Part shown: positions 28,597-54,995 of the stretch, piece by piece
How the letters are laid out: each line of letters begins with the position of its first letter
Numbering within the stretch: position 1 is the stretch's first letter
Assembly: GCA_951804985.1 (NCBI GenBank)
Contig: OX638136.1
Location: 744,001 to 808,000 of the forward strand
Direction: 5' to 3'
DNA: 64,000 nucleotides
Origin: Dryomyza anilis
Taxonomy: Eukaryota; Arthropoda; Insecta; Diptera; Dryomyzidae
Translations under genes and position numbers: made by a program
Notes under the pieces: generated by a model
The model's database searches: none
The model's input: only the letters and a program-made list of their open reading frames with translations
What the model was told of the DNA's origin: nothing

Positions 28597-28899
28597 TGTT
28601 ACGAAAATAGTTATTTGCTCCACTGTGTAAGCAATCAACAATAATAAACGCGAGACAATTGAGCGCACTAAGCAATGTGAAAGAAAGAGACGGAATATCA
28701 TTCAGCGCACTATGCGAGAAAGAGATGGAAGATCAGCACATTGAAATATATGAGTGCGAATGAGATGCCAATAGCATGCGTCATTCACGAAACGAGCAGA
28801 AGGTCCTTGAAACATGTCGTACTGATGCATGCAGTATATAAGGGCGCCGCATCTGAGGCACAGCACTTCAGTTGTGATTTGATAGTGAACTAGTCCGTC
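28597..28899 (+). mobile_element. Partial mdg3-like LTR (plus orientation)
   Basis: Starts TGTTACGAAAATAG after an ATATAT flank and matches, in the opposite orientation, the LTRs at 49889-50230, 55026-55567 and 58051-58591, including the TATA region agtatataagggcgccgc. It stops exactly where the errantivirus LTR begins, after gaactagt. The remaining ~240 bp are not found on the far side of the errantivirus. Confidence 0.75.
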
Positions 28900-29507
28900 T
28901 GTTGTGTATCATAATCGTAGAGTTCACAGCTTACATATGATCCACTGTTGTGTATCATAACCGTGGAACTTACAGCATGCTTATGATCCACAATATAACA
29001 TAACCAGTATATTTTTCTTTATGGCATACTTTTAGGGTTAAGCATTATGCATGTTAAACACAAACAGCATTTAATTGTCTTGGCGCACACCGCTTAACAT
29101 AGCACAGGTATACACGCCCACGTTAAATAGGTCACTCAGATCACACATATAAATGCTGACTTAGTTATTTTAGAATGATGAAAGTACTCAATTTATTGTG
29201 AAATTATAAATACGCTGACTAAGTTATTTTAGCATGATGAAATTACTCAATTTATTGTGAAATTATAAGAATACGAGGTGTTATGTAGAAGTTAAGTATA
29301 GACTAAGAATCAATTGTTTTCGATAAGCTGAAGTGTCTACAAATAAATGTTAAGTATAAGTGTAACCAACTTTTAAAGCAAAATAAAGTGTCTTAAAGTA
29401 CAAAAGACCCGGTTGTTTTAAATAATATAAAGAAAGTAAAAAGGACTCAGTAAGTATAAATAGGATCAAGTTAAAGTCCTAGTAGAAGGACCTTATAACA
29501 TACAACA
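28900..29507 (+). repeat. 5' LTR of the errantivirus
   Basis: 608 bp. Internal tandem duplications: a ~46-bp unit at the very start (28900-28992, tgttgtgtatcataa...) and a ~60-bp unit (about 29150-29268, gctgactNagttatttta...). A segment ggcatacttttaggg near 29022 resembles an insulator-protein (Su(Hw)) type site and occurs in both LTRs. Confidence 0.85.
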
Positions 29508-29522: not shown

Positions 29523-30124
29523 TTTCTCAAACAACGCTCTCAGGGACCGAGAGAAGAAGGACGATAGAAGGAAGAAAAGAACTAAAAATCACAAAATAAA
29601 TGGTGATTATTTAATTTTTTTTTTGAAAATACGTGAGTAACAGCAGAAAATTTAAACAATTATTAGAGTGTTTAATAAAGTAATAAATACAAATATACAC
29701 ATGGAAATTAAATAAATAAAGATTAAATAACAAACGAAATAAAAAGAAAATTGGAAATTTAAACTCAGATAAGTAAATGAAATTTGTTCTAAAATTAATA
29801 TGAAACGGAATTTTTGATCTTTTTTTAAATTTAAAAAATTTTAGAACATTTAAAATATCATTTTCATTTTAAAATTTAATAACAATATAAAATAAAAATT
29901 TAAAATAAAATAACATTTTAAAGATTTTGAAAATTTGAAATATTTTTTTTTATTTTTATAACATGGCCAATTTAATTAAAAAATTTACATTATTATAAAA
30001 TATCTGGTTTTAGTCAACAAATTTAAAAAATGTATAATATTTTTTTTTTTTTACATTGTGGAGCCACTTGAACTGTGGAGTGTTCTAGGAAATAAATTGG
30101 GATTTTTTTGTCGTTAATAAATAT
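29523..30124 (+). other. Errantivirus leader
   Basis: AT-rich untranslated leader between primer site and gag. No frame or repeat recognised. Confidence 0.5.
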
Positions 30125-31806
30125 ATGGCGGAATTGGAACAATTACAGTTGGCATACGGAAACATGCTAGGGCAATTGGACAGGTTTACGGATAAATTGT
30201 GGGCTCAAATTAGCCTCGAAGTAAATAATAAATTAATAAAAAATAAAGTTAATAACACAAAGGTTTTTTCTAAAGTAGAACGAGTAGATGTCGTGTTCGA
30301 AGAATTAATATATTTCTTGGAACACAAAAGTGAGAATAAAATAAAAGGGATAGAAGGCTGGAAAGGCGAATTTACAGCATTAACAAAAAAAATAAACGAT
30401 AAATTAGCAGAAAAACAGGAGGCGGAAAACGAAAAATTAAGAGCATGGTTGAAAGATAAAGATATTTCTCATGAATCAGGAGCTAGGGCACTATGTCAAC
30501 AACCAAGGCTAGAATTCGAATCAGTCGAAGAGGCAAATAACAAAGTAAGGATTCGAAAATCAGATTTTTAGAGGCGGAAGTAAACTTAGCACACGAAACA
30601 TCGTTATACCATAAAGAAGCTTTAAGAATAGAAGAAAATTTAGAAAGCATAACAAAAGATATAACAATAATTGAAATGCCGACAGACGATATTTCGAAAT
30701 GCGTACGAAATCTGGTCCTGGTGTTCAAGCGCGAAGATTCACCGTTCCTAAAAACGGAGCTTCTTAGATTTATAGACGGTTGTAAGGCAGCGAACCTTAA
30801 AATTACTGAAGAAAATCAGGAGGAATTCATGATTTGTATTCAACTGCGTCTTGATGGAGATGCATATGAATTAGTGAGGACCAAGAATATAAATGATTTA
30901 GATGAGTTGTTTGAATTACTTAAAAGCACATATTTAAATGTGGCTACATTAGATTCAGTTCAATACAACATAAGACAAGCATATCAAGGTGGAGGGGAAA
31001 GTTTAAGAGCGTTTGCAAGGCGTTTAGAAGTATTGCAGTCGAACGCAAACGACATAGCCGATACAATGTACAAAAAGAAAAACCTTCCAACAGACATTTT
31101 TAACACGGAACTATTAAATTCTGTGCTAACAGTATTTAAAGTGGGAGTGAGTGACCCGACGGCAGATAATTTAAATGATTTATTAGAAGAAGCGTTAAGG
31201 GCAGAGGCCACAATACTAATGGGGCCGAGATTACCGGAGGAACTGTATAGTTTTGAAAAAAGACCGAATGGAACCTCAGTTAGTAAAAATAATCAAGAAA
31301 CTGATATTAGAAATTCACGACAAGATAGGGGTAAAAGTCAACAAAATAGAAATAATGGGAATACTGGGGGTGCCATGAAAAAGGGGCCAGTCTGTTCATT
31401 TTGCACAAGACCAGGACACACAAGGGATGAATCGAGTTGGAGATGTGGATCAAATAGACTGGAAGAACGCCAGGAGAACCAACAACAATCATTTCAGAAT
31501 CAGAAGTACCAAGGGGGTTATAGAGGATTTCAGAATAACGGCTATCAACACCAGCAGCAGCAAAATCAGAATCCGCAGGACAGCAATACTCGTAATAATA
31601 GAAATAATAATATTAATAATGGTAATGAGAATAATAGAAATAATAATCCGTTTAGAAATAACGACAGTAATAACAATAACGAACCTAATAGAACATACAG
31701 AAATAATATGGCATGTTATGGGTGTGGTCAAGTCGGCCATATGATAGGGGATTGCCACGCCAAGAAAAATGTTGTGCCAAACAGTAGTAATGCTCACAAA
31801 AGGTGA
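30125..31806 (+). pseudogene. gag: gag (two frames joined by a frameshift)
   Basis: 30125-30571 encodes an N-terminal, Lys/Glu-rich 148-residue part. After a frameshift near 30545 the main frame continues (ATG at 30676) for 376 residues. The middle (residues ~1-180 of that frame) resembles an errantivirus capsid with QYNIRQAYQGGGESLRAFAR. Then comes a long Asn/Gln/Arg-rich stretch (about 200-345) with two zinc-knuckle-like motifs: CSFCTRPGHTRDESSWRC, and CYGCGQVGHMIGDC near the C-terminus. It packages the RNA and forms particles. Pol lies one base back in frame, overlapping at the stop, as expected for -1 frameshifting. Confidence 0.8.
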
Positions 31807-32597
31807 AACAACCACGGGCCCAGTCAAGGCCAATAAGCTGGGGTCCCGTTAACATTAGTAAAGTTAGGTCAAAGGTAGAAATAGTGGATCATACACCAAA
31901 GGAGCCTGTGATCAAATTTGCTACCGCAGCTTCAAATAACAACCAACAAATCATGGGGGAAAATATCGTTCATCAAACGTCGAGAATGACCGTTGATACA
32001 TATGTTGAGCCACCGTGTTTGGTCTGTAAGGAGAAGTTGAAAGAGGAAAAAATGGGTGAAAATATTGTTCATCAAACGTCGGGAGTGACCGTTGATACAT
32101 ATGTTGAGTCACCGTGTTTGGTTTGTAATGCAGTAGTAGGAATATTAGTTTATATCATACACTTTATAGGTATTGTGTCGATTACACTGGGGAACAAAAT
32201 AATAAAATTAGCAGAATATGAAAAGTATAAGGGAACGTTTGGAGAGGAAGCAGTAGGGTATAAAGTAAAAAACATATTATCAAGAATATCAAAAAGTATT
32301 GAGAATTTCGTAATAGAATATGATAAGAAGATTAGATGTCATATGAGTGAGTTTAGTAAAAGAAAGAATCGTATAATATGCAGTAGGCAGGTTGACTGTT
32401 TCAAACTACCTAATGTAAGTGATGTTTTCATCGAAGTACCTTGTGATGATGCTAAAAATGGAAAACTGATATTACTGGTAGATTCGGGAGCAGATGCTAG
32501 TATAGTAAAGAAGGGGTCGATGATACGACTTCCGGGTTTTTATAAAAATACTCAGAAGGACTTTAGTGGTGCTTTTGGGGGATGCGTACAGACTTTA
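31803..32597 (+). pseudogene. pol: pol, protease part (split by RTE)
   Basis: The frame opens beside the gag stop. It has an insert-like region with two near-identical ~30-residue blocks (VHQTSR/GVTVDTYVEPPCLVC, the codons repeating about 110 bp apart). A hydrophobic stretch (VVGILVYIIHFIGIVSITL) follows, which is unusual for a protease precursor. Then comes the retropepsin active-site block LILLVDSGADASIV. The frame is cut at about 32597 by the RTE. The protease end resumes after 35836 with IPADGIIGRDNIW. The catalytic Asp (DSG) is intact. Confidence 0.75.
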
Positions 32598-32606
32598 CTT
32601 ACTTAC

Positions 32607-34552
32607 TTAAATGGCCCTTACAACCGTGGGTCGGTTTTGGCCGCTGAGATGAAGCCGCGGCAGTCGGATCTGCTTTGCGCGCGCTGACGTTAGAAATACC
32701 AAGCGTTGCCAGGTTGTCCTCAACTTGGTCTTTCCAACGCAGATTAGGACGCCCTCTTCTACGCTGTCCACCTTCGAGTTTCGATTCAAGCACTTGGCTG
32801 GAGTGTTTTCATCCATTCGTTCGACATGACCTAGCCAGCGAAGTCGCTGGATCTTGATGCGCTTGACTATGTCAATGTCGTCGAATAACTCATACAGCTC
32901 GTGGTTCATCCTGATTCGATACTCGTTAGTAAAGCAGATAGGGTCAAAGATTTTACGGAGAATCTTTCTCTCGAACGCTCCCAGTACTCTCTCATCGGTG
33001 GAGGCCAGCGTCCTTGTTTCTGCACCATAAAGTAGGACGGCCATGATGAGTGACTTGTAGAGCGTTATTTTTGTCCGGCGAGAGAGGGCTCTGCTTCTCA
33101 ATTGCCTACTGAGCCCAAAGTAGCACCTGTTGGCAAGAGTTATTCTCCGTTTGATCTCCAGGCTGACGTCGTTGTTGCTGTTTACGCTGGATCCCAGATA
33201 GACGAAGTCGAACTTGTGGGTGTCAAAATCAGCTTTTTGTCCAAGACGCACGGACTCTTTTTTGCTTGTTGACACAAGGAACTTCGTCTTGTCCTCGTTC
33301 ACCGCTAGACCCATTCGACGCGACTCTTTCTCCAATCTGGAGAATGCTGCGCTGACTGCTCGTGTGCTCCTGCCAATGATATCAATATCGTCGGCATATG
33401 CGAGCAGCATAACACTTTTGTTGAGGATAGTGCCGCTTTGACGGAGTTCGGCAGCTCGAACTATTTTCTCCATCAATAAGTTAAAAAAGTCGCACGAGGG
33501 AGTCACCCTGTCTGAAACCTCGTTCGGTATGAAATGGCTCGGAGAGGTCTTTTCCTATTCTCACTGAGCAACGTGTGTTGCTCAGGGTCATCCTGCAAAG
33601 CCTTATAAGTTTCGCAGGTATACCGATCTCAGACATTTCGGCGTATAATCGTTCCCTTATAGGAGTGTCGAAGGCGGCTTTATAGTCGACTAATAGGTGG
33701 TAGGTGTCGATCTGTTTATCTAGAGTCTTTTCCTGGATTAGGCGCAATGTGAAAATCTGGTCTATGGTGGATTTTCCAGGTCTGAAACCGCACTGATAAG
33801 GTCCAATCAGTCTGTTGACGATGGGCTTCAGTCTTTCACATAATACGCTCGATAGAACCTTGTATGCGATATTGAGATAGTGGGATCCCCTTTCTTAAGG
33901 ATTGGACAGAGTACACTGAGGTTCCAGTCACTTGGCATGCTTTCATCCGACCATATTCTGCTTACGAGCTCGTGCTCTCTATTAGCTCTTCGCCTCCGGT
34001 CTTAAACAATTCAGCAGGCAGGTCATCAGGACCTGCGGCTTTGTTGTTTTTCAGCCGAGCAATGGCTGTTCTGACCTCGTCATGGTCGGGTGGCGGAATC
34101 TCAACGTCGTCATCAAGTACTGGGGTTGCCGGGTTTGCTTCTCTATCGGTGGAATTGAGGTCATCATCACCGGTCAGCAGTTTAGAGAAGTGATCCCTCC
34201 ATATTTTCAGTGTGCTCTGGATATCTGTCACTAGATTTCCGTTCTCATCTTTACAGGAAGAGGCTCCGGATTTCGAACCTCCGGCTAGGCGTCTTATTTT
34301 CTCGAAGAATTTTCGAGCCTCATTCCTGTCCCCATGCATCTCAATCTCCTCACACTCACGTCTTTCTGCCTCGCTTTTTTTTCGCCTGAAAAGACGTCTC
34401 TCTTCCCTGCTCTTCTCTTTGTATCGCTCCTTCGCAGCTCGCGTAGCTACTGACTGCAGGGTGGATTTGTACGCAGCGTCTTTCTCTGCAGTGGCCGCGC
34501 GACACTCTTGGTCATACCACTGATTCCTCAGGGGGCGTTGGAATCCAAGCAC
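32607..34552 (-). pseudogene. RTE reverse transcriptase
   Basis: Three frames. 33962-34552 has the linker and LKNNKAAGPDDLPAELFKTG (RT block 1). 33481-33747 has LLVDYKAAFDT (catalytic Asp block A) and RGFRQGDSL. 32607-33506 has VMLLAYADDIDIIGR (YADD, block C), the thumb LVSTSKKES, VLLYGAETRTLAS, and QRLRWLGHVERMDENTPAK. Frameshifts between them disable it. The catalytic residues themselves are intact. Confidence 0.85.
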
Positions 34553-34625
34553 CTCTTCGGCAGCCGTAGAGCAGGAGATATGATTCCACTGCGCGCTTAT
34601 ATCATCGAGAGGAGGAGTGCTTTGT

Positions 34626-35586
34626 CTAAGTGAGAGTCGAGTGGAAAAGGCTTGCGTTGTCTGTTGTGCTTGCAGCTTTCCGACGTCTAGCTTTCTCTGC
34701 GTTTGGTTCCGTACGTTCTTCGCAGCGCTTAAGCGTGGCTGCTACAAGGTAATGATCCGAGTCCATATTGGCACCTCGGATAGTGCGTACGTCCATCACG
34801 CTTGAAGCGTGCCTTCCGTCAATCACAACGTGATCAATTTGATTTCGAGTTTTTTGATCGGGCGACAACCATGTGGCCTTGTGGATATCGAAATGTTCGA
34901 ATCTAGTGCTACTAACTACCATGTTTCGTGCTGCGGCGAAGTCGATAAGCCTCGTTCCGTTATCGGAAGTGTTGGCATGGAGGCTAAATTTTCCGATTGT
35001 GGGACAATAGATGGCTTCTCTGCCCACCTTGGCGTTAAAATCGCCTAGCACGATTTTGATATCGTGGCGGGGGGCAGCGCTCCTATGCGTTGTCTAGGCG
35101 CTCGTAGAAGCGCTCTTTTGTCTCGTCGTCTTTCTCGTTCGCCGGAACGTGTGCACAAATTAGGCTGATATGGAAATATTTAGCCTTGATGCGGATTTTT
35201 GCCAGCCTTACGTCCACGGGCGTGAACCTAGAGACAAGGTGGCGGAGTCTCTTGCCGACCACAAATCCACATCCAAATTCGTGTCTCTCCGCATGGCAGC
35301 TGTAGTAGATATCACAGGACGCTTGTTTCGAACAGCCCTGTCCCGTCCATCGCATCTCCTGGATAGCGGTGATGTCAGCCTTATATTTTTCGAGGACATC
35401 TGCCAGCTGGATAGAGGCACCTTCCCTATAAAGGGTCCGGACATTCCAGGTGCATATCCGTAAATCATGGTCCTTAAAACGTTTGCGTGGGTCGTCATCT
35501 TTGTAATTGGTCGTTATCCGAGGCTTCTTTTTTGTTTTCATTGGGCGCATAGGTTTTTTCCGTGGTGGGACCCAAACCCAACGCAC
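34626..35586 (-). pseudogene. RTE apurinic-like endonuclease
   Basis: Two frames split by a shift in a G-run near 35070. The first (from 35586) has LRICTWNVRTLYREG, KADITAIQEMRWTG (catalytic Glu in the QE-x-RW block) and SLICAHVPAN. The second has MLGDFNAKVGRE, NQIDHVVIDGRH (IDH block) and MDSDHYLV (the SDH end of the nuclease). All six usual blocks are visible in order, so this was a complete domain. It nicks the target DNA for reverse transcription. Confidence 0.85.
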
Positions 35587-35794
35587 GAACCCTCACTCTG
35601 AAGGAGATGCTCGCCACTCACTTTAGCCGACTTCTACACCGGGTGGTGTAGAGCGCTGTTTCTAGGGACTTCCACGAGGAGGACTTCCACCTAAGTGGAG
35701 GTGTCACCATTTGACAATTTGCCAATTCTGGTGACCAGTGAGTTGACTTGAGACGACACCGAGAGGATTGCGCTGGCTTCGCCATGTTGAAGCA

Positions 35795-35835: not shown

Positions 35836-37048
35836 TGCGTAAGGACTTTAGGGACAATAAATATTCAGCACAACAGTATAGAGTGGTTCTGTTTAAAGAT
35901 GCATGTAGTGGCACTTGAACAAGGAATACCCGCTGATGGAATAATAGGACGAGATAATATATGGAATATGTCCATAATAGATAAAGATAAAAACAATACT
36001 ATACTACTACCCATGAGGACGCGGGCAGACTTGGAAAATATGTTTCTAAATCAGGAATTAAAAGTAGAACCTAGAACCGCAAAGATAGTATCATTACGTT
36101 TAAATCAAAAATTCCAATCGTCTTAATACATAAACAAGAAATTTATCACACACACATAGAGGTGAAATCAACAGACAGGTTAATAAAATGTTGGATGACG
36201 GCATTATATCGCCAAGCATATCACCCTGGAATTCACCGATGTTGCTAGTTCCTAAGAAGAGCGGCAAGGACGGTAACAAAAAGTGGAGGCTAGTTATAGA
36301 TTTCCGTAAATTGAACGATGTGACAATAAAACAAGTATTTCCGATTCCTCGAATAGACGAAATATTAGACCAATTAGGTCACAGTCGCTATTTTTCAACT
36401 TTAGACTTGGCAAGTGGTTATCATCAGATACTAGTTGAAGAAGGGGATAAGGAAAAAACAGCTTTTAGTACAGGTCTTGGTCATTTCGAGTTTAACAGAA
36501 TGCCTTTTGGTTTAACAGAGGCTCCAGCCACTTTCCAAAGAATAATGAATCACATATCAACAGGTTTACAGGGTACCGATTGCTTTGTTTATCTTGATGA
36601 TATAGTGGTGTACGGAAAGAATTTAGCTGAACATGAGCTTAGGTTGAGTAGAGTATTGCAGAAATTAAGGGAACACAATCTAAAATTAAATACAGAAAAA
36701 TGTCAGTTTTTGCGTCGCGAAGTTGTCTATTTAGGACATAAATGTTCCGAACTAGGTGCTCTGCCAGACAGAAAATTATCATTACCAATTAGTAAGTTAC
36801 TTAGAAAGGATGTTAAATTCACTTGGACCGACGATTGTCAAAATTCATTTACTAAACTAAAAGAATCAATAATTTCACCACCCATTCTCGCATATCCAGA
36901 TTTTACAAACCCTTTTTTACTTACAACAGAAGCAAGTAACGAAGCAATAGGTGCGGTACTGTCACAAGGCAAAGTAGGGAGCGACCGACCAACAGCATTT
37001 GCTAGTAGGGCATTAAATGGAGCAAAAAAAAAATTACTCCACCATTGA
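35836..37048 (+). pseudogene. pol: pol, protease end and reverse transcriptase of the errantivirus
   Basis: 35827-36126 carries the protease C-terminus (ADGIIGRDNIW) and stops. The frame 36188-37048 (286 aa) is RT: DDGIISPSISPWNSP near the start, LVIDFRKLNDVT (~35-46), FSTLDLASGYHQ (~69-80, catalytic Asp), MPFGLTEAPATFQ (~105-117) and the YLDD box (~135-138). After LGHKCSEL about 40 residues usually present in the connection (FLG-YYRKFI region) are missing in frame. A poly-A run near 37025 then shifts the frame into RNase H. The polymerase core is intact but translation is broken. Confidence 0.85.
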
Positions 37049-37577
37049 AAAGGAATTGTTAGCTTTAGTTTGGGCAACGAAAAATTTTAGAGCTTATCTT
37101 CTAGGCCGACATTTTCAAATTTATACAGATCATCAACCATTACGTAGCACAGCAAATCTCAAAGATCAGACATCAAGGTTAGCCCGTTTTAGGCATAAAT
37201 TATCAGAATATGATTACGAAATATCTTACAAACCAGGTAAACAGAATTTAAACGCAGATGCTTTAAGTAGAATTCCACATCCAGAACCAGATGTTACTGC
37301 GGTCCAAACACGGTCTAAGACTACACAGAATAAACTAGATAATCAAATTTCAAAAATCAAAAAACAAGTTAGCACGCCAGTACTGGATGAAATAACAACA
37401 GACACCAAGAACGAATTAAACTCAAGTCTACTATTAACTGACCCAGAGGAAATTAAAACTGTTATAAAAGACTTTTATGACTCAGCATTAGGGGGTCACC
37501 AGGGCGCCGTGAAAACATATTTTAGAATCGGAAAACAATTTAAGTGGAAAGGTATGCAGAAACAAATAAAAGATTAA
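37017..37577 (+). pseudogene. pol: pol, RNase H and integrase N-terminus
   Basis: Open for 186 residues. [20 protein letters not shown] (Glu block), the IYTDHQPL Asp block and [10 protein letters not shown] are RNase H landmarks. Residues ~140-180 begin the integrase zinc-binding region ([20 protein letters not shown], the H..H pair). Its Cys pair (CQKCQ) lies just after the TAA that ends this frame at 37577. Confidence 0.8.
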
Positions 37578-38470
37578 GTTAAGAATTGTCAAAAATGCCA
37601 AGTAAATAAAAGTTCTAGGCTTACTAAAATGCCAATGGTTTTAACTGATACGTCTGTACGACCATTCGATAAAGTATACATGGATCTTGTAGGTATTTTA
37701 CCGGAAACTATATCTGGAAATAAATTTATATAAACTTTTCAAGATGATTTTTCAAAATATATGTGCTGCGTAGCTATCCCAGACGCAGAAGGAAGCACTG
37801 TAGCAAAAGCATTTTGCGAAGAAATTATTACAAGACATAACATACCAAAAGTATTGATAACCGACAATGGTTCGAATTTTGTTTCAAAATTATTTTCGGA
37901 CACGCGTAAATTGTTAGGAATTAAAAAGTTACATATTACGCCATATCATCCCCAGGCCAACTAATCTTTGGAAAGAAGCCATCGACTATTAGCAGAGTAT
38001 TTACGAAGTTTTGCGAAAGAGGATGGATCAAACTAGGACCAGTGGTTAAATACAGCAATGCATGTACACAATAATACAATGCATATGTCTACCGGGCAAA
38101 CGCCTTTCCGTACTTTATACGGTTACGATTTTGAAATGCCAACCAATCTTAAACGCAAATGCTCACCAGTATATAATACCGATGATAGCAACAAGCTATT
38201 AAAATACCAAATTCAACGCACACACGAAATCTTGCGACAAAATCAAGCCAGAGCCAAAGAAAAATCTAAGCAAAGCTATGATAGCTAAGTACACTCAATA
38301 ATATTCAAAGTAGGCGATAAAATTTTACTAAAAAATCAAAATAGGAAAAATAAATTTTCAGCAGTTTGGGTAGGACCTCGTAGGGTCCTACCCAAACGAC
38401 TGAGATTTGTATCAAGGGTAAAGCGAATAAATTTCATAATAATTTGTTAAAAGCATACAACAGTATAGTT
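37578..38470 (+). pseudogene. pol: pol, integrase core and C-terminus
   Basis: Same element, several stops. Visible pieces are MDLVGILPET (first catalytic Asp), LITDNGSNFVSKLF (second Asp), HPQAN before a stop and then SLERSHR (the Glu), TPFRTLYGYDFEMP, and a C-terminal VGDKILLKNQNRKNKFSAVWVGP (GPY/F-like). The last block is truncated by a 14-bp inverted duplication at 38364-38397. It inserts cDNA into the genome; inactive here. Confidence 0.8.
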
Positions 38471-38587
38471 ATGTAGAATTAAATAAACGCTGACTGCAAC
38501 AAGGACCAATAATTTTGAACATCATTGAAATGAGGTCAAATAGTTAGCGAAGGACAGAATAGCTAAGTATTACATGTTGAGAATGAC

Positions 38588-38945
38588 TAGCAGTGTTTTA
38601 TGTACTGACAAATAAAAATATAATTTTTTTTGAAATCTGAAAGAAAGAACACCTAATTTTGATAAAATAATAAGACAAAAGCAATATATTTTAAAATATA
38701 TAGTTGTATTTTATTCATTTATAAAAATTATTACAAGTTATTGTTCTTATTTTTATTTTAATGGCCATGTGTTGACTAGCAGTGTTTTATGTACGGACAA
38801 ATAAAAATATAATTTTTTTTGAAATCTGAAGGAAAGAACACCTAATTTTGATGAAATAATAAGACAAAAGCAATATATTTTAAAATATATAAATGTATTT
38901 TATTCATTTATAAAAATTATTACAAGTTATTGTTTTTTTTTTTAT
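38588..38945. repeat. Tandem duplication, ~180-bp unit, two copies
   Basis: gactagcagtgttttatgta begins each copy (38588 and 38773). The copies are about 95% alike by eye and lie directly 3' of the antisense gene. They contain its TTTATT (complement AATAAA) signals at about 38708-38713 and 38899-38904. Confidence 0.8.
38899..38904 (-). terminator. Poly(A) signal for the antisense gene
   Basis: AATAAA on the minus strand about 40 bases after the TAA at 38942. A second copy is at about 38708-38713 in the duplicated unit. Confidence 0.5.
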
Positions 38946-39954
38946 TTTTTTTGGGAACTGAGTAAGCCCACCAGTTCATCGACCAAAGGGTCGATGAATG
39001 GTGGCGAGTAACCAAATATTTCACAGTATTTTTGTATCGTGGCCATCTGAGCGCGAGCCCAGACAGCCACTTCCGGAGAGTAGGGCTGGTTGAGTCAACG
39101 AATTGTCTCATCCAAGCCATCTACTAGATGCGCCGCATCCCAGCATTCGGTGATAAAGGCATCTCGATACTTCGTTAGCGCTTGGGCTAGCGCACCTCCA
39201 CTCTTCGAGAGTTTACGGTAACCCCACGAAGAGGCGCTACAACTTCCTTCTTCCAGGGAATCTTCACTATAACAATTGTCAACCCCATAGGCACCGTAGT
39301 AGGGGGCCCGTTCTTCGTTGATACTGCTGTCCAGGGAACCTTCACTAAAACCGCTACCAACTCCAGAGTCACCGTAATAGGGGGAGTAAGCCATTCCACT
39401 GGCCGAAAAGTCTTCACCATAGCAGCTAGAGTTATAACTACTGCTCCACGAATAACTGAGGTATGGACTATGGCCCCCTCTGATCCTCAGAGTCGCCATC
39501 CGGTCCGGATCGCAAAGATAGAAGGTGCTCACTGTTCTGGTCAATGCCTTTAATACATAAAAAAAAAAATTATTATATAAAAAATAAAATTATTAGAGAC
39601 AAGAAAAATTTAGAACATTTAAAATAATATTTTCATTTTAATATGAAAAGTTATAATATATGTTCATTAATAAAACTGTACATTACCTGTGAGGTCGATC
39701 GACTCTTCGACGGTTGGGATCAAGACGACATCTTCCCCATCCAAATCCGTGACCATTCGCTGCCCCTCTGCAGGGTAGGGTGCATCAACAGATAAGACCC
39801 CTAGGATCTCATCCATTAACGCACCCTCTACTGACTCCTGGGCTTCCTCCAGTAGAAATTGCATCTCCTCTTCAAATGCCTGCAGGAAGGCCGAATTCGG
39901 CAAATCCTGAAGGAATTCTGCGGAGGAGATGGAATTCAAAGCAAACGAAGACAT
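38942..39954 (-). CDS. Antisense spliced accessory gene within the errantivirus, unknown product
   Basis: Two exons on the minus strand. Exon 1 (39954-39687) starts MSSFALNSISSAEFLQDLP and is acidic and Leu-rich (89 codons). A 155-bp intron (39686-39532) has donor CAG|GTAATG and acceptor GAACAG|T, and joining keeps the frame. Exon 2 (39531-39095) is Tyr/Ser/Gly-rich with a degenerate internal repeat (PYYGDSGVGSGFSEGSLDSS / PYYGAYGVDNCYSEDSLEEG). It ends in a helical-looking segment (ALAQALTKYRDAFITECWD) and a TGA at 39095-39097. Reading continues open for 50 residues to TAA 38942-38944, so the TGA is either a Trp-codon loss or a leaky UGA-C stop. Length 234 aa, or 285 with read-through. It is GC-richer than its surroundings, suggesting capture. 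I recognise no homologue. Confidence 0.6.
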
Positions 39955-40003
39955 TTTTTTTTACTTTCTGAATTACTTTGGTTATATTTGTTTTAGAAAA
40001 ACT

Positions 40004-40041
40004 TGACTGTTGACTTTTGCTAAGTTTTGCGATCTTATATA
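40004..40041 (-). promoter_or_regulatory. Core promoter of the antisense gene
   Basis: TATATAAG (complement at 40034-40041) lies about 30-33 bases upstream of an initiator-like sequence, GTCAACAGTC (A at 40011 or 40008). About 55 bases of A-rich leader separate this from the ATG at 39954. The spacing is canonical for insect TATA promoters. Confidence 0.55.
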
Positions 40042-40139
40042 CTAATAAATTGCAACATAATCAATAAAAGGATTCCACAAGAATCAAGAACAAATTTATG
40101 AAAGATTGCTAAGTAATCAGTTTAGTTCAAAGTATGAGT

Positions 40140-40312
40140 TTCTGATCGGGGGCGCTACTCATTTTTACAGAGGAGAGGCAACGTAAAAAAAAAATAAAGA
40201 ACGAGTACGTCGTAACATACAAAAACAATGTCGTGTAAAAATCGCAAATTAATCAATTTAATTTAAAGGTAAAGGTTTCTCGTCGGGGGCGCTACTCATT
40301 TTTACAGAGGAG
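40140..40312. repeat. Two direct repeats upstream of the antisense promoter
   Basis: The block cgggggcgctactcattttt acagaggagag occurs at about 40146-40177 and 40275-40306, spaced 129 bp, GC-rich in an AT-rich context. Position suggests regulatory sites for the antisense promoter or a remnant of captured DNA. Confidence 0.5.
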
Positions 40313-40319
40313 AGGGAAA

Positions 40320-41230
40320 ATAAAATAAAGACTAGGAGTTGTTAATACAGCAACCAACCTCCAGCGGGTGGAGCTAAAAAAAACACTAGGTCACAATGGT
40401 GAACAATGACCATAAAGACTGTTCCCAGGTTTAAAATAAATGTAGGATAAACTAATCCGTAAATGACCCGATAGCTATGTAACTAGCATTGAATTATGGA
40501 CTAAAATTAATAAGATAACAAAATCAAAATTATTTGTGAAGTATAAAATTGCGATAGGTCAGTACCTATATCAATGGCATTCTAAACAAACAAGTTAATT
40601 GCACATAGAGCACAATGCTCCCAGCTCATATTAAAATTTGAGGCTTGAATATATTCATATGCCAACCGATTAAATGCACTTCAGCACTTTACAGGCAGAA
40701 GCCACTAACGTACTGGAACTGCAACGAAATACGGTAGTGCAGCGACAAAACTGCCTAATATTTTTTATCATTAACACAATTTTCATTCATGAAACTAAAT
40801 ATATTAATGTAGATATGCATTAATATAACAAACTAACAAACGTTTTAAATTCATCATTACACGGTAATGAAAATAAATAAGTACAATTGGGATGTACAAA
40901 ATTAAATATTTAACAACTTAATATAGCAAATACATTTATGTAATGCTACGAAGTAGCGCGCGCTTATTTCTTACTACTTAAAAAAAAATATTAGTTAATG
41001 CATGAGTAAATATCTAAGTATTGTTGAATATGACTAGCATTTAACCATGTACTACTGGGACTCTAAATAAAACAATTTGTATTGCAAAAATGCAGAAACA
41101 TATCCAAACATATATCATATAGTACATGCTGACACATAAGTAAATTAACTATTACAACTAATTAAGGTATAATTATGGCCATAGCCTTAACAGATGTATT
41201 AAGGTAAAATAAGAAATATTTATAAGAAAA
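40320..41230. other. Non-coding segment between antisense promoter and env
   Basis: AT-rich, no long frame. It may hold the env splice acceptor, but I cannot choose one. Confidence 0.4.
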
Positions 41231-41239
41231 CTATATGAT

Positions 41240-43414
41240 ATGATCAAGGATTCCATTAAATATGTAAAAAAAAAATTGAATTTATTCTCATATATTGGTT
41301 TCGCAATAAAGTGCGAAACCAATATAATGATTACAATTATCACACTGGTCCTGATGCTGGCAGCCAATGAAGCAATCAACATCACACAGACATCAATTAA
41401 TGATACAAGATTATTTTTTGAGAAGACATCTGATGCTTTGTTCTACAATGATGAATGGACGATAGTAGCCAAGTTTAAACCGCTACAACTGAACGATTTC
41501 CTGGAGCTGACAACCAAATACATAATCACGGCAAACACAATGTGCGATCAAATGAGCACCAATGTAAACGGACCCAGCATAAAAAGATCATGTATAGCAG
41601 CAACACCGGAGACCACGGCAATAATAGCCACACTACAGAAAATGAAGAAATAATTAAGCGCACAATAAAGAATAACCGACAAAAGAGATCACTCAATTTC
41701 ATTGGCAAGAACTTAACTGTGCTTTTGGATTGATGGACAATAAAGAAAGAGAGACTATCTATAAACATCTCAATGATATTGAAGATAATGAACATACCAC
41801 ATACGAAATTATGAAAAGACAAATTACGGTGATTTCATCAAATTATAACAAGATAGCAGAACCCTTACTGAATTCCATGAAGGAAGTCGAAAATCTGCAA
41901 AATGTGTTAAACATAACAATAAGAACACAAAAATACATAAATGAAAAAATAAACCAACAAGTTAGTCATTTACTATTCATGATGGATACCTTCGAAATTC
42001 AATCTACAATTAATGCAAACCTAATCGAAATTCAAGGACAACAGCTGATGGAAATGGCAATCATTGATGATCTATACAAGGGACGATTACACCCTACCAT
42101 TATAGACCAGAGCGAGGTAGATGAAATCCTGACTAGCCTCACGTTAAGAGGAAAGGCGAAGTGGTTCATACAAAAATCATTCGAAATGAACCGTGCATCA
42201 ACAGTACGAGTTTTCCCAGACACAGACGGCCTAATAATAGTCATCAAGACACCACTACCTGATGATTTGTTGTTCACATTATATAGAATTTACCCAATAC
42301 CCACAAATATTAATGAAGAATGGGATGCATTGGTTAAAACAACGTATGACTACATATCAGAAGCAGAAGACCGGAGCAAATACATAGGTCTATCGAATGA
42401 AGATCACAGCAAATGCATTTTGGTTAGCCAACATACGGACAAAGAAATTACACTATGCAAACGTCCAGGAACCATGCTAACAACTAGCAACACACTATCT
42501 GAAGTCGCGCTGATTCAACACAGAACAGATATTAAAGATACCTGTGAACATGTTGCAATCAAAATGAGTTCTGGCCTAGTAGTTAAACTATGCACACCAA
42601 ACACATGGTTGTATAAATTCAATACACCAGCCTTTTTCGAAGCAGTTTGTGGGTCAAATATAGCCACATTGACACAATCCGGCCTGGGTTGGATGTCCAT
42701 AAATGAAGCTTGCAACTTACACAACAAAGAAATGATACTGCCATACGAGTTTACACATCAAAGCATTAGGAATATAACATACAAGAAGGAAGAACATACG
42801 GTTATGATAGAAAATTTACAAGGCAATTGGTCATCATTATCATATTCAAATATATCACAAACATCGTTACCGATCTTGGTATCAGATCACAGCAAAATAA
42901 GATCAGCATTAAGAGATGGGCATCGTGATTTCGACGAAATATTACTACAATTAACTGATACCAGGAACGCAAAGAATTACTTAATCGTCAAAATGAAATA
43001 ACGAAAACCGGTATGTCTTACGGCATATTAATGCTGATATTAATAATAATAATAGCAGCATATGTATTATACATACATTACTACTCGACAATTAAAAAAA
43101 AAGCAACAATAAAAGCCGATGAATTTAATACAAATAAATCACCAATAACAACAATAGATGTAGAAGCGGCTAAGGAAAACCTTGAAATGGTGTCAAATAC
43201 ATTTCCCAGCAAGAAATCGGCACTCGAAAAAATCGGGTCATTGCGGAAATCAACAACGCAGAAACCAAACACCACAACACCCATAGCAAGTCAACGAACG
43301 AAGTCACATGAAATAGAAGCCAATACGTCAGAAACAACAACAACGCATCGAACTACCGCAGAACATCAGCAGTCAGCAACGAAAACATCGGGACCAGGTT
43401 TTTATTATATATAA
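41240..43414 (+). pseudogene. env: env of the errantivirus (broken in four frames)
   Basis: The N-terminal frame 41240-41653 has a hydrophobic signal-like stretch (IMITIITLVLMLAANEA). A furin-type site RQKRSLNFIG occurs in a second frame at about 41680-41700. The transmembrane-subunit ectodomain is the 423-residue frame 41730-43001, with several Cys residues and CNLHNKEMILP. A fourth frame, 43013-43414, supplies the membrane anchor (YGILMLILIIIIAAYVLYI) and a charged cytoplasmic tail. Order and cleavage site match insect errantivirus envelope glycoproteins. Frameshifts between the pieces mean that no full protein can be made. Confidence 0.8.
41291..41326 (+). promoter_or_regulatory. 15-bp perfect hairpin with AATAAA at its loop
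   Basis: 41291-41305 is exactly complementary to 41312-41326 (core ttggtttcgca / tgcgaaaccaa). The loop and last stem base read AATAAAG. It lies just before the env signal peptide. Confidence 0.6.
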
Positions 43415-43644: not shown

Positions 43645-43655
43645 AAGGGGGGAGG
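43645..43655 (+). promoter_or_regulatory. Polypurine tract
   Basis: aaggggggagg lies two bases before the 3' LTR start (43658). It primes plus-strand DNA synthesis in Gypsy-type elements. Confidence 0.8.
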
Positions 43656-43657
43656 TA

Positions 43658-44268
43658 TGTTGTGTATCATAATCGTAGAGTTCACAGCTTACATATAATC
43701 CACTGTTGTATATCATAATCGTGGAACTTACAGCGTGCTTATGATCCACAACATAACATAACCAGTATATTTTTCTATATGGCATACTTTTAGGGTTAAG
43801 CATAATGCATGTTAAACACAAACAGCATTTAATAGTCTTGGCGCACACCGCTTAACATAGCACAGGTATACACGCCCACGTTAAATAGGTCACTCAGATC
43901 ACACAAATAAATGCTGACTTAGTTATTTTAGAATGATGAAAGTACTCAATTTATTGTGAAATTATAAATACGCTGACTAAGTTATTTTAGCATGATGAAA
44001 TTACTCAATTTATTGTGAAATTATAAGAATACGAGGTGTTATGTAGAAGTTAAGTATAAACTAAGAATCAATTGTTTTCGATAAGCTAAAGTGTCTACAA
44101 ATAAATGTTAAGTATAAGTGTAACCAACTTTTAAAGCGAAATAAAGTGTCTTAAAGTAAAAAAGACCCGGTTGTTTTAAATAATATAAAGAAAGTAAAAA
44201 GGACTCAGTAAGTATAAAAAGGATCAAGGAATTTAAAGTCCTAATAGAAGGACGTTTAACATACAACA
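43658..44268 (+). repeat. 3' LTR of the errantivirus
   Basis: 611 bp, same internal duplications as the 5' LTR, about 20 differences from it. Ends catacaaca; the following sequence cggtcacac begins an unrelated GC-rich segment. Confidence 0.85.
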
Positions 44269-50267: not shown

Positions 50268-52024
50268 TTAATCCTCTCTCTCTCTATACGGCGCTAACCT
50301 TTCTAAACGTACTACTTTCATTTTTCGTCTAACGCCCGCAGTATTCTGAATCCGATACACGACATCATTAATTCTTTTAATTATCTTATATGGTCCTTCC
50401 CTGTGTGTTTGTAGCTTAGGGGATAAGCCTTTCTTCCTTTGTGGGTTATATAGCAACACAAGTTCTCCTTCCGTAAATCCCTCTGAATTTGTGCGCAAGT
50501 CGTATCTGGCCTTCATCTTATCACTCGCAAATTGTGTACGCTGTCTTACAAATTGATACACTTCGTTCATTTCTTCACTTTTTCTGGAAACATAATTGTG
50601 TATATGAATTCCAGGTGAAGGACTCGCACCAAACTTTAAATCCGCAGGTATCTTAAGTCTGTTCCAAAAACAATTTTATATGGTGAAGCTGCTGTGGTAT
50701 CATGAACCACCGTTCGATAAACCATGAGGAATACTGGTAGGTGTGTATCCCAATCTTTTTGATTTTTATCAACCACTTTTCTGAGAAACTCTTCCAAAGT
50801 CCAATTGAATCTCTCCACCATGCCGTCTGATTGCGGGTACAAAGGCGTCGTTCGTGTTTTATGTATGTTGAGGACTTTGGATATTTCTTTAAAACAGCAG
50901 ACTCAAAATTTCTTCCTTGATCTGAATGCAATTCTAACGGTACTCCAAAACGACTTACCCAGTTGTTAACTTATGCCTCCGCAACTGTTGTGGCTTCTCA
51001 ATTCGGCATGGGATACAATTCGGGCCACTTGCTGAAGTAGTCGATGACGACAAGGACATACTTATTACACGCATCACTGATTGGTAACGGGCCGGCGACA
51101 TCCATTGCAATACGCTCGAATGGTGCTCCCACGTTGTACTAATGCATCCAGCCGCGACTTCTGACTGTTGGTCCTTTTGCAGATACACATTGCGGACAAC
51201 TGCGAATCCAATCGGCGACTGACTATTGGCATCCAATCCAATAAAAACGTTTCTTTACCTTCTCGACCGTTTTGTTAATGCCTAAATGACCACCACTAGA
51301 TCCACCATGGTATTCCGCTAATATTTCTTTTATTTTTGACTTGGGTACAACAATCAAACTTCGAGCGGTTGTGCCACCTTCATTTTCCCATACACGATAT
51401 AAGCAACCATCTTGTAGCTTTAAGTTCTGCCACTGTGCCCAGTAAGCTTTAGTTATTGGACTGTCGGCAGATCTATCTTCCCACGTGTTTTTCTCTGCTG
51501 TTCCTTGAACATCATGATTTTGGTGAGGTCGGGATCACTCTTTTGATCAATTTGAATTTGTTCCGGACTCCACTTTTCATCGGGCAAAACATTTAGCAAA
51601 CGAGTGTCAATTATGTTTTATTTTCCTTCCGCTCTTGAACAATATCTGCATTCTAGTTTACATGGGCGTCGTGACAGAGCATCTACATTTCCATGATGAC
51701 CTCCTTTACGATGTTCTATGGTGAAATCGTAGCTCTGTAATCGTTCTATCCAACGCGCAATTTGACCTTCTGGGTCTTTGAACTGAAGTAACCATCTCAG
51801 TGCAGCGTGATCGGTTCTCAACATTTTTTCACACTTTCGATTACAGAAAGAAGCTCCCTCCTGGTGACACAGTAATTTCGCTCGGGTTTGGACAAGGTTT
51901 TACTGTAGTATGCGATCACTTTTTCTTGTCCATTGATCACTTGAGAGAGAACTCCGCGAGTGGATTCAGTATCCACTCGCATCCGTATCAAGTATAAATT
52001 TCTCACCTGGAATTGAATACGCAA
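50268..52024 (-). pseudogene. pol: RNase H and integrase of element A
   Basis: RNase H continues from the RT frame end (VIAYYSKTLSKPERNYCVT; RTDHAALRWLLQFKDPEGQ; GNVDALSRRPC) with two frame breaks. The integrase is in pieces: HSDQGRNFES (second Asp), YPQSDGMVERFNWTLEEFL (catalytic Glu region), VFLMVYRTVVHDTT, and a C-terminal GELVLLYNPQRKKGLSPKLQ...REGPYKIIKRINDVVYRIQ with the GPY/F signature. At least five stops or frameshifts. Confidence 0.8.
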
Positions 52025-53135
52025 GAATTGGTGCCGAGCACAGCAGACCTTTTAATTTCAAAAACGCCCTTTCTTTATCATTGCCCCATTGAAATGCGCG
52101 GTTCTTTCTTGTCAACTTGTGAAGACTGCTAGCTACATTGGCAAAACCTGGAACAAATCGCCTGTAATATATACATAGCCCCAAGAAACTTCGTAGGTCA
52201 TGTAGGTTTTGCGGTCTGGGCCACTCCTTGACTGCAACTATTTTATCCTCATCGGTATGCACTCCTTCCGTTGTAACTCGATGACCCAGATACTTGACTT
52301 CTTTCTTGAAAAGTGAGCATTTCTTTGGGCTTAGTTGTAGACCCGCACTTTTCACTCGAAGGAATACTTCCTCTAGATTTCTTAGATGTTCGTTGAAATC
52401 CTTTCCCATAACAATTATGTCATCAAGGTATACTAGGCATGTTTTCCAGAGTAAACCTTTTAATACGTGCTCCATTAACCGCTCAAATGTTGCTGGGGCA
52501 TTGCATAGTCCAAACGACATTACAAAAAATTGCCATAGTCCATCTTCAGTACTAAAGGCAGTCTTCTCTCGATCTTTCTTATCGATTTCGACTTGCCAGT
52601 AACCGCTTTGCAAGTCCAACGTTGAAAACCACTTAGCATTAGATAGTGTATCCAAGGTGTCATCGATTCCAGGCAGCGGATAACTATCTTTCTTGGTGAC
52701 ATCATTAAGTTTTCGGTAATCAACGCAGAACCGAGTACTACCGTCCTTCTTTTTCACCAATACTACTGGTGAACTCCATGGACTCTCAGATGGTTCCACC
52801 ACCCCATTTGTGTGCTTTTCTTCAACCAAATGTAATACTTCGTCTCTTTTCGCAAGTGGTACCCTTCTTGGTGCTTGACGAATTGGGTTAGAATCAGCAG
52901 TGTCTATTCGATGTTTTACAATGGAAGTTCTGTCATCCTTTTGGCCCATTTCAGCAAATATACACCGATATTTGTCAATTAGCTGTTTCACTTGACTCTT
53001 GGCAGCCAAATCCTTCATCCACTCATTTATAAACTTGTGATTAGATTGTTTGTTTAGTTGCCGTGTGACATAGTCCTTTGATGTATTTGACTCGCAATTT
53101 ATAATTGCTGACGCCTCCTGACACTGGCCTACCAC
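51966..53135 (-). pseudogene. pol: Reverse transcriptase of element A
   Basis: 389 residues open. It contains PSESPWSSPVVLVKKKDG (~114-131), FCVDYRKLNDVT (~136-147), FSTLDLQSGYWQ (~170-181, catalytic Asp), MSFGLCNAPATFERLM (~206-221), YLDD (~236-239), KYLGHRVTTEGV and the full connection SFLGLCIYYRRFVPGF, then the start of RNase H (FILDTDASGY). Sequence relatedness is to mdg3/Blastopia and not to the errantivirus. Best-preserved gene in the array. Confidence 0.85.
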
Positions 53136-53695
53136 TGTTCCCTTTTTGATTTATTTTGACGAGTTTTCAAATTGAGAACTCTTATAGGTACAATTCTGTC
53201 TTTCTCCGCCTCAACAAGTGTTCTTCCTACCACTATGTTACTTTTATACAGCTCTTCGTTTGCTTCAATAACCCACAACTTGCTTATCCCACAATCTCCA
53301 TTTAATTTCGCCCAAACAATTGCTTCTGAATTAGGTGGTATTTTTCTATTTTTATAAGCAATAACTTGTTTCATTTTCGGGCTCTGGTCACAATCAATAT
53401 TTAGTTGGATCTCCGTGTTGGCATAATTCAAAATTTTTCTTGTTAAATCAAGTGTGAAACCGTTCTTTATCATGAAGTCCATGCCAAGTATTATTTCGTC
53501 AACTATTTCTGCCACAATAAAATCATGCTTAACTGTCGTAGTACCAATCGTTATTTTCTTGGTAATCTTTCCTCTGATAGGGGCCTCTTCACCTGTAGCT
53601 GTTAGTAATCTTATTCCCACAAGCAGCTCTACTTTATACTTAACAAGATTTCTTCTTATTATTGAGTGTGAAGCTCCCGTATTCAATGTTACCAT
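53129..53695 (-). pseudogene. pol: Protease region of element A, active-site Asp changed to Asn
   Basis: The 188-residue frame opens MVTLNTGASHSIIRRNLVKY. Retropepsins have D-T/S-G at this point, but here the codon is AAT (Asn), which would abolish catalysis. The flap-to-C-terminal part (DEIILGMDFM, like ILGxDF) follows at ~70-78. The frame ends near the RT frame start. Confidence 0.7.
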
Positions 53696-54995
53696 ATATG
53701 CTTACAGTTTCCGTAAATGTCACTTTCAGCATTGTCACTGTGGCACGTCTTGTTTCCGGATCACGTATGCCGTCAACGAAGGCTTCGATCTTGCACTTTT
53801 CTATGAAATCACTCGTTGAATCTGCATACGACAAATGCGCTGCATACGCCTGCAATGTTTCACCATTTCTTTGCATTCGGCACTTTAGTTCCATTCTGTA
53901 GATTTGCTTCATGTGATCACTGCCATATTTTCTCTGCAGTGCAGACATAACCGCTAAATAACTGCTTCGATCGCTTTCTGGAACAGTCTGCAATACTTCG
54001 GCTGCACTTCCTTTAAGCGCCACGATAAGTGCGGCTACGCTGTCCTCATTATTCCATCGATTACTTACAGTCGTGGTCTCAAATTGCAGCTTGAAAATGT
54101 TGAACGCTGTGGTTCCATCGTAAATCGGCGATTTTAGCCTCGTACCAGTAACAACATGCTGTGTAGGTCCACTTATCTGTAGTTAACTGACATCTTCTTG
54201 TATTTTCTGTAGCTTTTTGTCGAAACCATTTTCCAACTTTTCAAATTTGTCATCAATGTCCACTACAATGTCATTTAGATGTGCCTCAAGTTCGTTTACT
54301 TTGCCATGGAGTGTATTAGAAACTTCCAGAAGCTGCTTAGAATGTTCCTGCATCTGTTGCTCAATTTTTACTTGATGTTGGTTTGAATTGGACTTTTCAA
54401 ATTTGTCATCAACGTCCACTACAATGTCATTTACATGTGTCTCAAGTTCGTTTAATTTGCCATGGAGTGTATTAGAAACTTCCAGAAGCTGCTTAGAATG
54501 TTCCTGCATCTGTTGCTCAATTTTTACTTGATGTTGGTTTGAATTCTCTAGAAGTTTCTGTTCCATTCTTGTCGAATTTTCGTGGAGCTGTTTTGAATTT
54601 TCTGGAAGTTTCTGTTCCATTTTGATGGAATTTTCTTGTAGTTCTGTTTTAAGTTGATCTGAATTTTCTTGAAATTGTTTTGAATTTTCTAGACATTTTT
54701 AATCTAGTTCTGTTTTAAGTTGATTGGAATTTTCTTGAAGCTGTTGTTGTATTGCTCCGAGCAACTGGCTCATATCAAAACTTTGGGACTGTACTTTTTG
54801 CTCCGTGTCCACACTTTCTGATGACGCTATTGCAGCTTCCACTTCAAACTCGTGCTCTGCGAGGTCAACGCCTTGGTTCTCTAATTCTTCCATTAGGTGC
54901 TATTGTAGCTCTACTTTCGTACCTACAGTTGGAAGATTATGAATCGCCAGCTCCTTCTTTAGCTGGTCGACTTTAAGTTGTTCGAATTTAACCAT
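53640..54995 (-). pseudogene. gag: gag of element A
   Basis: Starts MVKFEQLKVDQLKKELAI at 54995, a SAP-type DNA-binding fold (residues ~1-40). A TAG interrupts codon ~35. Next is a coiled coil made of QENSxQL-type seven-residue repeats, with a ~190-bp tandem duplication (QHQVKIEQQMQEHSKQLLEV twice; 54230-54530). After stops, a capsid-like frame (53640-54180) reads FKLQFETTTVSNRWN, ALIVALKGSAAEVLQ and MQRNGETLQAYA. Compared with element B it lacks six residues (DVERLA) and the whole zinc-knuckle region, running instead straight into protease. Confidence 0.75.

Follow-up and report, generated by a model that had tools for sequence, protein, structure and literature searches.

The window analyzed here, a 64,000-nucleotide stretch of the Dryomyza anilis genome (GenBank assembly GCA_951804985.1, contig OX638136.1, positions 744,001 to 808,000), contains an endogenous provirus that its domains place among the errantivirus-type Ty3/gypsy elements with a Baculo_F-type env, and a gene that lies in antisense orientation between the pol and env genes of this element. 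The antisense gene is, with near certainty, kept as a protein-coding gene by purifying selection, which was found in two lineages. Judging from its sequence features it is very probably a spliced gene with a TATA-initiator promoter of its own, carried by a large family of endogenous retroviruses; taken separately, splicing of the antisense transcript is highly probable and an independent promoter quite probable. To our knowledge, no antisense gene is known in errantiviruses, and none was met in the parts of the literature that were searched, an earlier description being possible.

Structure and Predicted Promoter of the Antisense Gene

The gap between the end of pol (about position 38450) and env (41213) measures 2.8 kb and holds the gene on the minus strand. 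Reading along that strand, a TATA box (TATATAAG, 40041-40034; in 33/40 aligned copies) is followed by an initiator-like site (GTCAACAG, 40007..40014; in 28/40 copies) whose A at 40011, the predicted start, is 30 nt away from the first T of that box. The ATG at 39954 opens exon 1 (39687..39954; 268 nt, 89 codons plus one base), which encodes an acidic N-terminal part and ends at a GTAATG donor (39686). The intron (39548..39686, GTAATG...TTAAAG) is 139 nt long in the window, its donor and acceptor being kept across copies, and exon 2 (38940..39547) encodes a repeat region and a C-terminal part that ends in ...VDELVGLLSSQKK and a stop; the window copy carries a length lesion and a nonsense codon in this exon. 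The repeat region comprises two units of a 78-nt (26-codon) tandem repeat rich in S, Y and G (39252..39384). An AATAAA follows exon 2 at 38904-38899, and the 3' flank of the gene contains a 189-bp tandem duplication (38584..38948), the second unit of which has another AATAAA, found by reading, at 38715-38710 on the minus strand. The original prediction, made from the window alone, had listed the TATA box, the initiator-like site, the ATG, the 268-nt exon, the GT donor and AATAAA, all of which are present; the position between pol and env and the strand were likewise confirmed, and the cassette recurs at many loci.

The GC content of the two exon blocks is 0.51 in AT-rich surroundings, with 0.16 across the 155-nt intron first proposed, and a two-state GC segmentation blind to the gene model set its borders at 38952/38953, 39548/39549, 39685/39686 and 39932/39933. 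A scan for gene models (TATA, ATG, at least 60 codons, GTRA donor, AG acceptor with pyrimidine tract, at least 100 further codons) returned the antisense gene and one model inside the env open reading frame (ORF) in the real window, and a model in 1/3000 local block shuffles and 0/25 whole-window shuffles. The gene structure thus exceeds chance expectation.

Transcription by RNA polymerase II (Pol II) would begin near 40011 and proceed antisense; the intron would be removed, and the transcript would end before pol at the AATAAA sites doubled by the 189-bp repeat. The intron would survive reverse transcription because the sense genomic RNA carries no such splice sites, and its retention in all 37 copies having the donor would follow, since the intron would be copied intact in each cycle. 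With a promoter of its own, as predicted here, the gene could be expressed while the long terminal repeat (LTR) is silent, as proposed originally; the spacing of the promoter elements is kept in two lineages.

Two further features of the region are recorded. Two diverged repeats upstream of the gene (40101..40329) each contain GGGGGCGCTAC (at 40148-40158 and 40285-40295; two found, 0.13 expected), a motif that occurs at least once in 35/40 copies and at least twice in 25/40. It may resemble the core of the insulator protein CTCF. A CTCF/insulator-like function of the repeats was discarded and no weight is put on them, because the core GCGCCCCC appears upstream in just 1/6 lineage-B loci (see below). 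In addition, about 39 nt of the intron (39604-39641) resemble the 5' leader of the element (29834-29872) at 92% in the same orientation, and 0/150 shuffled introns score as high.

Genomic Copies and Corrected Gene Model

The D. anilis genome (656.6 Mb) was searched with the 1.1-kb antisense segment; from 236 first-look candidates, 40 were scored and gave 109 matching pieces on five contigs. Comparable first looks produced 822 candidates for env and 2137 for integrase, rough figures not all of which were scored. The alignment comprised 39 fetched copies plus the window (40 rows), with L012, L027 and L040 set aside for lacking the donor by the pattern used or for being truncated. The donor, ACAG followed by GTAATG, is present in 38/39 measurable rows, and an AG stands at the acceptor position (39548 in the window) in 39/39. 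Exon 1 measures 268 nt in 28/37 copies with a donor, and the TATA-initiator spacing is 30 nt in 24/27 copies of this lineage (lineage A) that have both elements. The intron spans 111-156 nt in the 31 single-donor copies; in six copies a duplication adds a second donor and the intron reaches 362-379 nt. L041-L044, L046 and L047 represent a subfamily in which the end of exon 1 and the intron are duplicated, giving the second donor.

A 155-bp intron with its acceptor at 39532 had been proposed at first. Of three AGs close to the acceptor, only the third (39532) preserves the frame in the window; the other copies tell otherwise. Exon 1 is whole and exon 2 open over at least 180 codons in 14 copies, and in the ten of these with a single donor the first AG (39548) leads to 201-306 open codons, against 46-166 from the AG of 39532. 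The latter gives the longer frame in 10/32 rows without donor duplication, window included, and all ten have off-standard exon lengths. Counted from the 39532 acceptor, exon 2 measures exactly 436, 514, 592 or 748 nt (436+78n) in 20/40 copies, in steps of 78 nt because the number of 26-codon repeats varies (2-6 units in ten whole copies), and that of the window measures 437 nt, one above a standard length. The true intron is therefore read as the 139 nt from 39548 to 39686, since the first AG opens the frame in the other copies and the AG of 39532 compensates a 1-nt lesion of exon 2 in the window.

The end of exon 2 needed revision as well: it had been set at the first stop of the window, and in other copies the frame runs further, to ...VDELVGLLSSQKK, which in the window lies in a separate open stretch. 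Readthrough of that stop was considered and dropped, as other copies are open there and the stop is a lesion of the window copy. The latter is thus not intact, with at least two lesions in exon 2 (the length and a nonsense codon before the C-terminal part). LTR divergence leads one to expect about 0.57 nonsense changes in the antisense gene since insertion, so one nonsense codon is unremarkable if the gene was intact at landing. Across the family, exon 2 is open for at least 180 codons in 20/37 copies, and the frame is whole to the C-terminal DELVGLL motif in 10/40. A genome search with the exon-1 protein (150/157 candidates scored) gave, among the matches listed, 71 near full-length ones (at least 87/89 residues, 83-100% identity, window included), of which 62 have no in-frame stop by hand count. 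Among whole copies, the most similar pairs reach 99.3-99.5% identity, so that movement or duplication of cassette-bearing proviruses was fairly recent.

Purifying Selection in Two Lineages

A second lineage of the gene (lineage B) was sampled at six loci (L100-L105), fetched from at least 22 listed rows, some of them short, with 54-69% amino-acid identity in exon 1. All six have GGTAATTGG at the end of exon 1 with the same donor, and 5/6 have a TATA-initiator pair at 28-29 nt under a relaxed pattern. The C-terminal part of exon 2 was recovered in L102 and L105 and partly in L103, L100 and L104 contain short exon-2 pieces, and L101 none. L100 (G000:C1:128576161-128578161) is a copy without the proviral promoter flank common to the other five loci and the window, either truncated or in a different setting. 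Nine lineage-B exon-1 loci occur within about 100 kb (G000:C7:6538570-6640780), either clustered insertions of related elements or an array that arose by duplication.

Selection on the antisense frame, the check suggested along with the first description of the gene, was found in both lineages. Within the family, the ratio of nonsynonymous to synonymous differences (pN/pS) of exon 1 is 0.39 (confidence interval, CI, 0.22-0.77; n=26 copies with ATG and 268 nt), the other five frames giving 0.51-1.96, and that of exon 2 is 0.66 (CI 0.52-0.83; n=20 of 37 copies, 120 ungapped of 365 alignment codons), the others giving 0.77-1.17. Between lineages, 12 of the 14 copies with intact exon 1 and open exon 2 were compared with lineage B; L029 and L030 were left out because of broken C-termini, and L024 and L028 were kept although their DELVGLL motif is not in frame. 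The substitution-rate ratio (dN/dS) is 0.14-0.35 in exon 1 (6/6 lineage-B loci) and 0.13-0.22 in the C-terminal part (the 3/6 loci with enough alignment). Differences at the three codon positions amount to 0.27/0.20/0.47 and 0.23/0.14/0.49, third positions changing most, and in the six-frame control the antisense frame has the lowest pN/pS, 0.40 and 0.32.

These patterns also bear on the proposal that the antisense RNA rather than a protein is functional, for instance by pairing with sense transcripts. Antisense non-coding transcripts are described for the Drosophila elements micropia and TART in the available text of PMC7264820, but selection follows the codon structure, changes being most frequent at third positions and the ratio of the true frame being the lowest among the six, and the length of exon 1 is kept while that of the intron varies; an RNA product is consequently considered highly improbable.

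Presence, Absence and Exchange of the Cassette

In place of the antisense cassette (38585..40543), cassette-less proviruses have about 250 nt of different sequence. The cassette-less copies L048-L051 match the window over about 38264-38584 and again from 40544 (L048, L050 and L051) or 40652 (L049), and weak similarity to them extends inward to about 40480. The original prediction held that copies lacking the segment would speak against such a gene: among the first 24 integrase matches, 14 lack the cassette, while 10, window included, have it, and the two kinds are separated on a tree. Typing was performed on 20 rows chosen from 40 listed integrase rows, leaving out those already known to bear the cassette. 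The integrase tree included 40 rows (26 with the cassette and 14 without); L062 was excluded because of its coverage. L066 fitted both states and L069 fitted neither; both were counted as cassette-bearing on account of their position beside known cassette copies. A single change separates the two groups, with support 67/95; one change was also found in 70% of bootstrap trees (a bootstrap not settled), and shuffling gave a mean of 11.7 changes with 0/500 values as low. Because the two kinds of provirus separate on the tree and dozens of loci carry the gene, the cassette is regarded as an optional module and not as a chance ORF.

The lineage-B cassettes of L101, L102, L103 and L105 run into the end of pol, whereas those of L100 and L104 do not within the 2 kb fetched. 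As lineage-B cassettes also adjoin pol, the ancestral state is probably presence of the cassette, with the cassette-less form as the derived one, the root of the tree not being fixed. In L102 the end of pol is 98% identical to the window over 109 nt and the cassette 74-78% identical, which suggests exchange of cassettes between proviruses, the pol end being far closer to the window than the cassette is. Both edges of the cassette carry a short direct repeat, which was tried as a recombination site and is suggestive only (5/300 shuffles as high); for a motif cut from it, 41/100 shuffles have as many occurrences.

Could the segment be a chance insertion, either of a foreign transposon nested in the element or of a piece of a host gene? 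The GC-rich exons within an AT-rich element and the absence of the segment from many proviruses would fit such an origin. No convincing terminal inverted repeats were found, so a nested DNA transposon of that type is not supported; moreover, the absent state corresponds to a swap for about 250 nt instead of a clean insertion, and in 4/6 loci a divergent lineage, itself under coding constraint, sits at this position beside pol. The genome searches with the antisense segment and the exon-1 protein showed no independent host gene or transposon made of these two exons. Chance insertion is thus very improbable. The view of the gene as a captured or evolved accessory gene holds in that it is an accessory gene under purifying selection; capture found no backing, as neither a source gene nor a homologue was detected.

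Predicted Protein and Possible Role

The predicted protein has roughly 290-395 residues and comprises an acidic N-terminal part, two to six S/Y/G-rich repeats of 26 residues and a conserved C-terminal part of 85-86 residues. Exon 1 has a net charge between -18 and -20 in the two copies for which it was calculated, and the residues invariant across nine sequences of both lineages include LPNSAFL in this exon. A single-sequence structure model of exon 1 is helical at residues 22-54, with a predicted local distance difference test score (pLDDT) of about 85 over residues 21-40 (mean pLDDT 65.9; predicted template modeling score, pTM, 0.30). S, Y and G account for 47-49% of the repeat part in two copies, and this part looks disordered.

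Homology searches, of the kind recommended at the outset, yielded no homologue outside the D. anilis genome. No Pfam family scored above its cut-off, TRP28 and bZIP included, and no nucleic-acid-binding domain was found by this search; the best weak match was exon 2 of L013 (E 0.0093, 15.7 bits vs a cut-off of 25). Protein databases gave no credible homologue, two of these searches being unable, by their length filter, to reach full-length relatives. Nothing credible was obtained from viral contigs (queried with exon 2, reverse transcriptase and the C-terminal part), from genome contigs, phage records and Rfam, or from PDB sequences (best E 0.018) and viral folds (best E 0.26). The exon-2 query piece of the window, used in several of the protein, contig, PDB and model runs, begins with a short stretch outside the true frame, as judged by the other copies.

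A regulatory rather than structural role of the protein is proposed only tentatively. An acidic protein combining a helix with repeats and devoid of a recognized nucleic-acid-binding domain may act through partners, and the best guess is a transcription cofactor adjusting LTR activity or host silencing, a role that HBZ has and that Grande gene23 may share (see below). A wider proposal appears doubtful as a whole: that these genes form a hitherto undescribed family of accessory genes that are antisense, spliced and driven by a Pol II promoter of their own, a module exchanged between insect proviruses whose product keeps the virus active against silencing, and an independent counterpart of HBZ.

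A different role would be that of a suppressor of host silencing by PIWI-interacting RNA (piRNA) or small interfering RNA (siRNA), made while the LTR is shut. Gypsy errantiviruses are targeted by ovarian somatic piRNAs in several insects, according to the available sections of PMC13172572, and both LTR-independent expression and a repeat region varying between two and six units would suit an arms race. Against this stand the acidic nature of the protein and its lack of any nucleic-acid-binding domain found, the protein search, which gave no homology to a known suppressor, and the abundance of cassette-less proviruses as well. Silencing suppression by the protein is accordingly judged unlikely.

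Evidence Against a Spliced and Selected Antisense Gene

Several observations weigh against the reading of the segment as a functional spliced gene. The lineage-A acceptor (TATTAAAG joined to GC) does not have the usual pyrimidine-CAG form, and promoter and splice sites alike are called from consensus and conservation alone. The cassette is not essential for spread, since 14 of those first 24 integrase matches are without it. No particular function is supported by a homologue outside the genome, and the model of the exon-2 piece of the window is uninformative in this respect (mean pLDDT 34.9). Regarding selection, shared changes in exon 1 comprise 18 nonsynonymous and 8 synonymous (N and S) vs 32 N and 19 S plus 4 nonsense changes among singletons; amino-acid changes are thus no rarer among shared changes than among singletons, and the within-family signal of exon 1 taken alone is modest. 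The pair of 26-codon repeats in the window shows no purifying signal either (9 N, 2 S). Finally, the next-lowest pN/pS of the six-frame control belongs to a sense frame (0.51 and 0.40), close to the antisense frame, and this sense frame has just one stop per copy in exon 1 (9-23 in exon 2).

The last point, together with the sense orientation of the 39 intron nucleotides resembling the 5' leader, would favor the possibility that the selected sequence serves the sense strand, as an ORF or an RNA element, the antisense frame being a by-product. The low ratio in that frame is nevertheless the expected shadow of selection on the antisense frame, because the two share third positions, and all three sense frames are closed by stops in both exons in 14/14 copies. 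A sense-strand coding role was rejected on this ground, and a sense-strand origin of the signal is extremely improbable.

The Host Provirus and Neighboring Elements

The provirus is delimited on the plus strand by a 5' LTR (28897..29507), followed by the primer-binding-site (PBS)-like TGGCGCAGCCGGT, and a 3' LTR (43655..44268), with the purine tract AAGGGGGGAGG immediately upstream. The LTRs are identical in 593/615 alignment columns (96%), with 17 mismatches and 5 gap columns (Jukes-Cantor, JC, distance 0.028). A gag-like ORF is present, and no protease match was obtained in 31791-32684 by Pfam profile search. The order of pol domains is reverse transcriptase (RT), RNase H and integrase, with an F-type env downstream. 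The stretch 36134..37574 (plus strand) covers RT, RNase H and the start of integrase (RVT_1 E 2.4e-37, RT_RNaseH 4.4e-20, Integrase_H2C2 1.9e-10), and the integrase continues over 37575..38447 (plus strand; rve E 2.3e-10 on 37734-37961), where five in-frame stops occur in about 290 codons, vs one in the antisense gene. The env gene (41213..43411, plus strand) consists of three open stretches, its frame being broken in the window copy (Baculo_F E 3.5e-21 on 41676-42998).

Other elements occur in the window. A long interspersed element (LINE) with endonuclease and RT matches lies antisense within pol (32610-35592; matches at 32610-33554 and 35086-35592), and a second Ty3/gypsy-type element is found on the minus strand at 50271-54698 (RVT_1 E 3.7e-38, protease matches).

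Comparison With Known Systems

Antisense accessory genes are already known in deltaretroviruses and in plant Ty3/gypsy elements. An antisense, intron-bearing and selected gene in an animal Ty3/gypsy retrovirus would show that the same solution arose in another branch of the LTR elements. The intron would provide a natural marker, as only antisense transcripts are able to splice it, and the coexistence of cassette-bearing and cassette-less proviruses in a single genome offers a natural comparison for the role of the cassette, which bears on how errantivirus-like elements coexist with piRNA silencing. With errantiviruses the element shares the Ty3/gypsy order of pol, the Baculo_F-type env and the PBS-like and purine-tract sequences beside the LTRs.

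In plants, the available text of PMC7264820 and PMC11963269 describes gene23 of the maize element Grande as antisense, transcribed from an upstream promoter and with a nuclear product, and the antisense ORFs (aORF-3R) of Ty3/gypsy elements, including the TRP28 ORFs of Retand, as located in an enlarged region downstream of pol that often has tandem repeats. Like these, the gene of the window is antisense, coding, downstream of pol and conserved across copies. Unlike Retand, for which those texts give no env-like sense ORF downstream of pol, the insect element has an env following the gene. The insect gene also has a predicted intron, a word that occurs 0 times in PMC7264820 and PMC11963269. It differs further from Grande- and Retand-type aORFs in having no TRP28 or other known aORF domain by Pfam, besides the distance between plant and insect elements.

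Among insect Ty3/gypsy elements, the sORF2-like ORFs of the MDG1 group are, in the available sections of PMC11952523, all in forward orientation, which is read there as no alternative promoter, and encode transmembrane products of 63-107 residues. The gene described here is likewise an accessory gene of an insect Ty3/gypsy element; it differs from sORF1 and sORF2 in its antisense orientation, its own predicted promoter, its intron and its acidic protein of the larger size given above.

The closest parallels in splicing are HBZ of human T-cell leukemia virus type 1 (HTLV-1) and APH of HTLV-2, -3 and -4, antisense, spliced and regulatory genes according to the available text of PMC10186651, which assigns HBZ a TATA-less promoter in the 3' LTR and a bZIP domain. 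The D. anilis gene resembles them as an antisense spliced gene of a retrovirus, with a regulatory role that is here a prediction. In contrast to HBZ, its protein gives no bZIP match above the Pfam cut-off, and the promoter predicted for it is an internal one with a TATA box: this box, the ATG and the two exons are located at least 3.6 kb upstream of the 3' LTR, between pol and env, an additional start in the LTR being possible.

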